Shown here one piece after another: positions 34,169-36,367 of a DNA stretch of 64,000 bases. Both the position numbers and the translations under genes were made by a program. This DNA is from Actinomycetota bacterium (lineage in GTDB: Bacteria; Actinomycetota; UBA4738; HRBIN12): contig JBBECT010000005.1 of the NCBI GenBank assembly GCA_040881665.1, positions 712,138 to 776,137 of the forward strand. Direction: 5' to 3'. The first letter of the stretch is position 1; every line of letters starts with the position of its first letter. Below the pieces are notes generated by a model that was not told the DNA's origin, made no database searches, and saw nothing but the letters and a program-made list of their open reading frames with translations.

Positions 34169-35362
34169 CTACGCGACCCAGTGTCGGGCCGGCTGCGAGA
34201 GGAACTCCTGCACGGGGATGCCTTGGCCGCCGACCAGCAAGGTGGTCGCCCCCTCGAACCGCTCCGTGAACGCGCGCAGGCCCGGTAGGGCGTCCTTGCG
34301 TCGACCGCTCGTCACCTCGAGCCCGACCACCCGCGACCCCGAGTGGAGCACGAGGTCGACCTCACGATTGCGATCTCGCCAGTACGACACCTTGATCTCG
34401 TCCCCCCCTCCTGAGTTCACCAGGTGGGCTCCCACCGCGGTTTCGGTCAGGCGCCCCCACATCTCCGGGTCCGTCCGCGCGTCACGGAGCGAAACGCCGG
34501 ACGGAGCCGAGACCAGCGCGGCGTTCAGTGCGACCAGTTTGGGACTCGAACCGCGTCGCCGAACGATGCTCCCGCTGAACTTCTGCAGTCCCGCGATCAG
34601 TCCTGCGCCCTCCAGGAGCCGCAGGTAGTGGGCGAGCGTCGTCGTGTTCCCCGCATCCTGCAACTGGCCCACGAGCTTCTGGTACGAAACGATCTGTCCC
34701 GAGTAAGCGCAGGCGAGCTGGAACAGTTGTCGCAGGAGCGCCGGCTTGTCGATCCGCGTCAGGAGCAGGATGTCGCGGGACAGCGTGGTCTCGACGAGGG
34801 ACTCCATGATGTAGGCGAACCATCGTCGTCGGTCGTCGACGAGATCCGCCGCCCCGGGATACCCGCCGAAGAACATGTACCGATCGAGGTCCCACGAGAA
34901 CGCCGCGCGCATCTCTGAGAACGACCAGTGCGGCACTCGGATCAGCTCGAAGCGACCCGCCAGACTCTCGCCGAGACCCCGCTGGACGACGAGGGGTGCG
35001 GACCCGAGCAGCACGGTCCGAAGCGACAGCTCCGACGCGGAGTCTTCGTCCCACAACAGCTTCACGAGGCTCGCCCAGTCGGGGATCTTCTGCACCTCGT
35101 CCAGGACCAGCACGGCGCCGTCTTCGCCCGCGTCACGGGCCATCGTCCTTCCGATCGTCCACTGCGCTCGCAGCCACGCCAGGTCTCGCCCGGACGGATC
35201 GTCAGCGGAGGCAACGTGCACCGGTCCACGAACCTGCTGGGTGGCCTGCCGCGCGATCGTCGTCTTCCCCACCTGGCGAGGTCCCGCCAGCACCTGGATG
35301 AAGCGCCTCGGTTCGGCCAGGCGTTCCACCAGGAGGTCCACCATGCGGCGCCGATAGATCAC
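34169..35362 (-). CDS. AAA-family ATPase with DUF4143 (AAA_14/DUF4143)
   Basis: P-loop ATPase of the AAA_14 type with a C-terminal DUF4143 nuclease-like domain. Such genes are common, mobile and poorly understood. Walker A GPRQVGKTT is at residues 27-35, Walker B VLVLDEVQKIP near residue 90, then VLLGSAPLVVQRGLG (sensor-like) and FGGYPGA, a family signature. The DUF4143 part includes TLAHYLRLLEGAGLIAGLQK (winged-helix-like) and a PD-(D/E)XK-like end: KVSYWRDRNREVDLVL then VGLEVTSGRRKD. Length 397 residues. Its start is preceded by two tandem palindromes at 35371-35412. It is divergent from a TetR regulator. It may be an accessory gene with self- or partner-directed regulation. Confidence 0.87.
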   Translation of the reverse strand: MIYRRRMVDLLVERLAEPRRFIQVLAGPRQVGKTTIARQATQQVRGPVHVASADDPSGRDLAWLRAQWTIGRTMARDAGEDGAVLVLDEVQKIPDWASLVKLLWDEDSASELSLRTVLLGSAPLVVQRGLGESLAGRFELIRVPHWSFSEMRAAFSWDLDRYMFFGGYPGAADLVDDRRRWFAYIMESLVETTLSRDILLLTRIDKPALLRQLFQLACAYSGQIVSYQKLVGQLQDAGNTTTLAHYLRLLEGAGLIAGLQKFSGSIVRRRGSSPKLVALNAALVSAPSGVSLRDARTDPEMWGRLTETAVGAHLVNSGGGDEIKVSYWRDRNREVDLVLHSGSRVVGLEVTSGRRKDALPGLRAFTERFEGATTLLVGGQGIPVQEFLSQPARHWVA

Positions 35363-35370
35363 CCCGACAG

Positions 35371-35392
35371 TTTACTCAACACGTTGAGTAAA
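35371..35392. promoter_or_regulatory. Operator-like palindrome 1 (TTTACTCAA-N4-TTGAGTAAA)
   Basis: A perfect 9-bp inverted repeat with a 4-base centre, starting nine bases upstream of the DUF4143 ATPase start. Its core TACTCA is shared with the palindrome at 35395-35412. The two centres are 22 bp apart, about two helical turns. Confidence 0.75.
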
Positions 35393-35394
35393 TC

Positions 35395-35412
35395 TACTCA
35401 GTATGCTGAGTA
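35395..35412. promoter_or_regulatory. Operator-like palindrome 2 (TACTCAG-N4-CTGAGTA)
   Basis: A perfect 7-bp inverted repeat immediately upstream of palindrome 1 relative to the ATPase gene, with the same TACTCA half-site. The arrangement suggests cooperative binding of a dimeric regulator. Confidence 0.75.
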
Positions 35413-35440
35413 ATCTGTTCCACGCACAGTTTTCTGTGAC

Positions 35441-35460
35441 TATACCGTCTGGACGGTATA
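35441..35460. promoter_or_regulatory. TetR-family operator (TATACCGTC-TG-GACGGTATA)
   Basis: A perfect 9-bp inverted repeat ending eight bases before the GTG start of the TetR gene. The size and symmetry are typical of a TetR/QacR-family operator, and the position implies autorepression of the regulator-efflux operon. Confidence 0.8.
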
Positions 35461-35468
35461 GTTAGTGG

Positions 35469-36041
35469 GTGGCATCTACCACTGAAGTGACGCCTTCGGA
35501 ACGACGATCCTCGGCGTCCCGGGCTCGGATCCTGGAGGCGGCCTATGAGGTCGTGCGCGTGCGAGGAACCACCGCGATGACACTCGACGCGGTGGCCGAT
35601 GCCGCCGAGGTCAGCAAGGGTGGGTTGCTCTACCACTTCCCGTCGAAGGACGCGCTGCTTCGGGCGATGGTCGATCGGCTCGTCGGCGACTACACGCACG
35701 CCGTCCGCACCCACGCGGCGGCGGACGAGAACCCGCTCGGACGTTCCGCACGGTCGTACGTACGTGCGGGAACCGACACCCTCCGCGACGCGGACGTGTG
35801 GCTCGCCCTCGTCGCTGCACTCGGCGAAGGGCCGAACCTGCTCGAACCCTGGCGGGAGGTCTGCGCCGGGTGGATGGACACCGACCATTCCGAGGGGGTC
35901 GACATCGTCTCGTCGACGATCGCCCGGCTCGCCACCGACGGCTTGTGGCTCGCCGACGTCCTCGGAGTCGAGCCTGTGGACACCAAGGTCCGTGCGAAGA
36001 TGCTGCAACGGCTCGAGGCGATGACCGAGGAACCGGCGTGA
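35469..36041 (+). CDS. TetR/AcrR-family transcriptional regulator
   Basis: Likely repressor of itself and the overlapping SMR efflux gene. The N-terminal helix-turn-helix is ASRARILEAAYEVVRVRG followed by LDAVADAAEVSKGGLLYHFP and SKDALLRAMVDRLV, a canonical TetR DNA-binding domain at residues about 17-68. The C-terminal ligand domain is of the short type, with DVWLALVAALGEGPNLLEPW. The length of 190 residues is normal. The start is GTG 35469, with a perfect 20-bp palindrome just before it. Its stop overlaps the next start (GTGA), so repressor and pump are translated together. The inducer is unknown, perhaps a lipophilic cation. Confidence 0.93.
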   Translation: MASTTEVTPSERRSSASRARILEAAYEVVRVRGTTAMTLDAVADAAEVSKGGLLYHFPSKDALLRAMVDRLVGDYTHAVRTHAAADENPLGRSARSYVRAGTDTLRDADVWLALVAALGEGPNLLEPWREVCAGWMDTDHSEGVDIVSSTIARLATDGLWLADVLGVEPVDTKVRAKMLQRLEAMTEEPA

Positions 36042-36367
36042 ACCCCTGGGTCCTCTTGGGGTTCGCGATCGCGACCGAGGTCACGGCGACGTTGAGCCTT
36101 CGCGCCTCCGACGGCTTCAAGAGGCTCGGATTCTCGATCGTCGTGATCGTGGGCTATGGGCTGTCGTTCTGGTTGCTCGGCCTGATCCTGCGTGAGCTTC
36201 CCTCGGGGGTCGTCTACGCGATCTGGAGCGGGTTCGGGATCGCGATCATCGCGGTCGCCGGGCGGTTCCTGTTCGACGACCGGCTGCCGATCGCGGCGAT
36301 CGGCGGGATCGCGCTGATCCTGGTCGGCATCCTGACGATCAACCTCTCCGGTGCAGGCGGTCGCTGA
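36038..36367 (+). CDS. Small multidrug resistance (SMR/EmrE-like) efflux protein
   Basis: Four-helix, 109-residue proton-coupled exporter of the SMR family in the cytoplasmic membrane. The N-terminus NPWVLLGFAIATEVTATLSL contains the essential membrane-embedded Glu (position 13-14 in EmrE numbering). GYGLSFWLLGLILRELPSGV and VYAIWSGFGI match the conserved TM2-TM3 blocks, and IALILVGILTINLSG is the fourth helix. The start is GTG 36038, overlapping the TetR stop by four bases. Typical substrates are quaternary ammonium compounds, though some members export guanidinium; which applies here cannot be told. It is probably derepressed when the upstream TetR protein binds a ligand. Confidence 0.93.
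   Translation: MNPWVLLGFAIATEVTATLSLRASDGFKRLGFSIVVIVGYGLSFWLLGLILRELPSGVVYAIWSGFGIAIIAVAGRFLFDDRLPIAAIGGIALILVGILTINLSGAGGR

Follow-up and report, generated by a model that had tools for sequence, protein, structure and literature searches.

Tandem-dyad operators at which a repressor controls its own gene are known, for example those of toxin-antitoxin systems and of phage repressors. The locus that we describe here resembles them in that paired palindromes, two helical turns apart, lie over the promoter of a gene for a putative DNA-binding protein, and it differs from them in that the part of the repressor would fall to a single AAA+ ATPase that carries both a winged helix and a nuclease-like domain, and not to a small protein dedicated to repression. 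An AAA+ module with a winged helix behind it is also the layout of Cdc6/Orc1 and other DNA-binding ATPases of the AAA+-winged-helix type. Unlike Cdc6/Orc1, the protein has an additional C-terminal PD-(D/E)XK-like domain, the TM-scores are low, and the putative binding site is the operator of a gene instead of an origin. Over its full length the protein matches the PADLOC profile of PDC-S01, which has been reported as the fourth most common prokaryotic defence system and is a phage-defence candidate of unknown mechanism (PMC12988326). PDC-S01 is defined by the protein alone, to which an operator is added here, and its antiphage role is that of a candidate. No operator or regulation of PDC-S01 is described in the literature that we searched, and a literature search on palindromic operators of AAA_14 genes returned unrelated papers only.

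The analyzed stretch of DNA, hereafter the window, comprises 64,000 nucleotides of an Actinomycetota genome. The pattern TACTCA-N6-TGAGTA occurs in it twice within positions 35371-35412, and this tandem site is located 10 bp 5' of the GTG start codon of an AAA_14-winged helix-DUF4143 gene (Table 1). The first-pass annotation of this DNA had pointed to tandem palindromes with a common half-site, centred 22 bp apart and upstream of the ATPase gene, which we can confirm. It had also called them perfect palindromes of 22 and 18 bp; the repeats are indeed there, and the word "perfect" is a slight overstatement because the palindrome centres are not themselves palindromic. The gene-proximal palindrome has 10-bp arms around a non-palindromic 2-bp centre, and the second one, TACTCAG-TATG-CTGAGTA, has 7-bp arms and a 4-bp centre. 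There are two exact matches to the pattern in the window, compared to a mean of 0.15 in shuffled windows, which never contained two even when up to two mismatches were allowed. With one mismatch tolerated, the two window sites were the sole matches in the genome of 2.46 Mb, so that the site is unique in this genome and the palindrome is not randomly scattered over it; a reversed control pattern had no match in the whole 2.46-Mb genome. A version of the pattern with an N4 spacer was discarded as it had no match, the true spacer being N6.

Table 1. Coordinates of the features at and around the tandem palindromes in the window.
Feature	Position	Strand	Remarks
AAA_14-winged helix-DUF4143 (PD-(D/E)XK-like) ATPase gene, PDC-S01 candidate	34169-35362	-	397 aa; alternative ATG at 35344
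Gene-proximal palindrome	35371-35392	.	TTTACTCAAC-AC-GTTGAGTAAA; core TACTCA-N6-TGAGTA at 35373-35390
TAGATT	35391-35396	-	In the place of the -10-like TAAAAT that relatives have between the palindromes; from the sequence and the composition of 77 operators
Second palindrome TACTCA-N6-TGAGTA	35395-35412	.	22 bp centre-to-centre from the first
TetR palindrome	35439-35462		ACTATACCGTC-TG-GACGGTATAGT, perfect arms
TetR regulator gene	35469-36041	+
SMR multidrug transporter gene	36038-36367	+	Follows the TetR gene

To define the distribution of the site, we scanned approximately 85,000 GTDB genomes (257 Gb), as well as viral contigs, for two copies of ACTCA-N6-TGAGT with centre spacings of 16 to 46 bp. 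Among the matches listed for GTDB and viral sequences, the spacing was exactly 22 bp in 115 of 146 tandem pairs, and any other spacing occurred in at most 8 pairs each. By simple arithmetic, about 0.2 chance matches with a fixed spacing are expected in 257 Gb. The record titles of the 22-bp loci among the matches listed include Bacteroidales, Chlamydiae, Verrucomicrobia, Acidobacteria, Deltaproteobacteria, Acidimicrobiia, Treponema, a planctomycete, Saccharibacteria and a Thermoplasmata archaeon. At no fewer than 53 loci from many phyla, about half of the 115 pairs, the site stands at the start of a DUF4143 gene that is directed away from it; the palindrome thus precedes orthologues in many phyla with the same exact 22-bp spacing. 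Exactly two palindromes were present in 80 of 84 arrays, longer arrays being rare, and a genome usually has a single site. A near-perfect tandem site also accompanies the homologue WP_227790521.1, which is encoded on a plasmid of Collinsella aerofaciens. Because the same double site with its 22-bp spacing recurs across many phyla, it is almost certainly a dedicated switch. The dedicated operator suggested by the first-pass annotation is accordingly supported by both the uniqueness of the site and its conserved spacing.

A test that is independent of the site was made by searching genomes by protein alone. In a sample of 395 genomes of the Bacteroidota-type phylum to which Mucilaginibacter (L041) belongs, 37 of the 46 genes of the close subfamily had the site (28 tandem and 9 single) and 9 had none, compared to only 1 of 18 genes in the sister clade (delimited by score range, approximately 430 aa), the single case being a shortened 299-aa frame (Fisher p = 3e-8). 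Shuffled upstream regions contained a tandem site in 0 and a single site in 6 of 1360 cases. In the window's own phylum, the site was found with 15 of 20 protein-selected relatives. However, in the phylum of a Burkholderiales genome the strict site was found with only 1 of 10 relatives, which counts against the reading that the ATPase acts on its own operator; most of the other relatives in this phylum have a modified site, for example one in which an inner TGAGTA-N4-AACTCA pair is flanked by TGATTA as the outer half-sites. An independent scan of the 395 genomes for the pattern, with up to two mismatches, returned 29 loci. The gene is present at 21 of these (truncated by the end of the contig in one case), 3 have a fragment of it, and at 5 there is no trace of it.

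We examined the anatomy of the site in 77 gene-linked operators, a set selected to have no more than one mismatch. Within this set the 24 half-site positions are near-invariant, except that position 2 is A or G and its partner varies accordingly, and the N6 segments are variable. With distances of 12, 10 and 12 bp between them, the four TACTCA half-sites share roughly one face of the helix. The operator is often preceded by a TTGA-like hexamer, and TAAAAT or TAAATT begins at position 17. In the relatives this amounts to a promoter with 17-bp spacing, in which the first palindrome fills the spacer between the -35 and -10 elements and the likely transcription start lies beneath the second palindrome. 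In the window promoter the -35-like TTGAnn of the relatives is not evident, an observation that speaks against a self-operator. The N6 segments covary slightly more than shuffles do (direct 3.10 and inverted 3.05 versus 2.7), an excess too weak to be read.

Other DUF4143 clades have different palindromes of their own at the start of the gene: in 18 of 72 cases the palindrome was stronger than in every one of 60 shuffles, with 1.2 such cases expected, and the same palindrome test applied to downstream control regions was positive in 0 of 60 cases. The half-sites of a divergent member (L251) are of a TACGCA type, the Thermus oshimai member has TACTAG-N6-CTAGTA, and the outer half-sites are changed in L425-L427. 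Operator type follows the DUF4143 clade.

The ATPase contains both PF13173 and PF13635 (76.4 and 94.7 bits, respectively, with cut-offs of 27 and 28.1), and the PADLOC model PDLC04791 (PDC-S01) was matched with an E-value of 4e-165. The earlier view that such a gene has no clear role therefore has to be amended, because PADLOC lists what it matches as a defence candidate. The Walker A and B motifs are intact, residues G21, R23, Q24, G26, K27, T29, D82 and E83 being invariant in 50 proteins including the one in the window. In the AlphaFold model, which is a confident one (pLDDT 92), helices 201-246 and strands 250-272 adopt a winged-helix arrangement; secondary structure and Pfam together point to predicted AAA+, winged-helix and PD-(D/E)XK-like parts. 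The recognition-helix segment GNTTTLAHYL is near-invariant in operator-bearing proteins. Although the best Foldseek matches include RuvB and the origin-binding AAA+-winged-helix proteins Cdc6/Orc1, alignment to solved structures over the full length yields low TM-scores of about 0.3, which weighs against the self-operator reading. A sequence search for solved homologues found none, and an NCBIfam search gave no match. Compared to the active PD-(D/E)XK motif EVD...E-x-K, the window protein has the EVD and the E and lacks the lysine. Residue 345 (ATG numbering) is T in the window protein (EVTS versus EVKS in the family), in the same-family genome G010 (L004) and in L238. With T in the place of the likely catalytic lysine, the nuclease activity of the window protein has probably been lost, and regulation could remain. 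The same residue is A in L242 and S in L251, suggestive of repeated loss of this lysine.

On the basis of sequence conservation, the reading of the double palindrome as an operator-promoter dedicated to the DUF4143/PDC-S01 ATPase gene is well supported. A conserved site at the gene's promoter across orthologues, as is characteristic of autorepressors, was indeed found. We consider it likely that this operator is autorepressed by the winged helix of the ATPase itself. Of the regulators that the first-pass annotation had considered, this one is best supported, because no linked regulator recurs and the operator type tracks the DUF4143 clade; among the neighbour families of 89 loci, none was common to more than a few. 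In the proposed mechanism, the ATPase would bind its own operator through the central winged helix, with two adjacent dimers on the four same-face half-sites. Since in relatives the first palindrome lies in the spacer between -35 and -10 and the second spans the probable transcription start, a protein bound there would keep RNA polymerase out, and tight autorepression would result. Release may follow if something, for instance invading DNA, draws the ATPase away. An AAA_14/DUF4143 gene of Thermus thermophilus was reported to be up 6.6-fold in the presence of plasmid DNA (PMC4406477), which fits a foreign-DNA trigger, that gene not being linked here to a TACTCA operator.

Sites without the gene count against the self-operator reading. 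No close relative of the ATPase is encoded in 30 of the 37 genomes with apparently gene-free sites that were examined, and there are phage contigs with intact sites and no gene. Three apparent orphans (L088, L135 and L139) turned out to be gene-linked in a search of the complete genome. At L067, L074, L086, L100, L109, L120 and L130, N- or C-terminal gene pieces remain beside the site, and part of the orphans are therefore deletion remnants; other orphan sites show no trace of the gene. In L074/L278, L067 and L120 only a C-terminal part is left, abutting or near the operator, as if deletions stop there. In L237 and L239 the tandem site flanks the DUF4143 gene on both sides, and recombination between the two copies could leave an orphan site. 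For the phages, half-site conservation was judged on loci chosen by their terminase, as the use of loci chosen by the operator would be circular. In one phage family chosen in this way, one or two sites are present at 36 of 80 loci; each of these loci retains at least one intact palindrome, and the N6 is variable. These sites are located in a region crowded with other palindromes, and no DUF4143 gene was present in the contigs read of this terminase-defined family. The terminase-chosen sites hint at a function in the phage; a different binder may also explain them.

Orphan sites in genomes that lack a close DUF4143 relative, and gene-free phage sites whose palindrome is intact in the 36 loci chosen by terminase only, are also what one would see if an unlinked and widely conserved host or phage regulator bound the operator and the ATPase gene were merely its target. 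This we regard as unlikely, since a single specificity maintained over so many phyla for one gene is hard to credit, a genome usually has one site, the operator type changes with the DUF4143 clade and no neighbour gene is common to the loci. A very unlikely explanation is that the double palindrome is an end or target of a mobile element, with which the ATPase gene travels and of which the orphans are scars or targets. The gene is patchy (present in 2 of 17 genomes of the window's own family), occurs on plasmids, is flanked by the tandem site on both sides in L237 and L239, and has left remnants that abut the site in L074/L278, L067 and L120, all of which would suit such an element. However, a downstream tandem site exists in just 3 of 63 loci, not the terminal repeats that an element would have; a second end, a target duplication or a transposase-like partner was not found, and the site overlaps promoter elements. 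On the same count of 3 of 63 loci, a terminal-repeat transposon was rejected as a general rule.

The palindromes are located between the divergently oriented ATPase and TetR genes, and might for that reason be taken as operators of the TetR regulator. This is highly improbable, as TetR has an unrelated palindrome of its own, is absent from the 17 related genomes searched, including G010, whose ATPase gene retains a TACTCA palindrome, and is not among the shared neighbours; TetR as the binder was rejected on its separate palindrome and its absence from these relatives. The same absence makes this stretch look like accessory DNA. Finally, the idea of chance palindromes, or of a terminator or RNA hairpin, draws on the palindromic shape alone, and its probability is negligible in view of a frequency and a regularity of spacing far above chance, and of A/T-rich half-sites whose conservation is over a promoter at the gene's 5' end.

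If the self-operator reading is correct, the conserved cognate site would give PDC-S01 a testable handle, namely a defined 40-bp ligand and a predicted oligomer geometry, and would offer a predicted autorepression circuit together with a reporter for inducers of the PDC-S01 gene. The orphan phage sites would lead to a direct prediction on the interaction of host and phage. In a wider and rather doubtful extension, PDC-S01/DUF4143 ATPases would be defence proteins, self-sensing and self-silenced on a clade-specific operator of four half-sites, and the gene-free phage copies would be decoys or promoters that respond to the host ATPase. The terminase-defined phage family (L149, L150, L155, L158-L161, L335-L374) has a terminase that shares approximately 35% identity with its counterparts in Flavobacterium and Bacteroides phages. 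Located 5' of its gene are short palindromes in a shuffled array, among them one or two TACTCA sites, GTTGCATTTTATGCAAC, GTTCACGAAACCGTGAAC, GGTAGTATTACTACC and TGTTACCAATTTGGTTACA. In the phage contigs L147, L148, L156 and L163, a tandem TACTCA site is located between a capsid-like and a tail-fibre-like gene, just before the ribosome-binding site of the latter.
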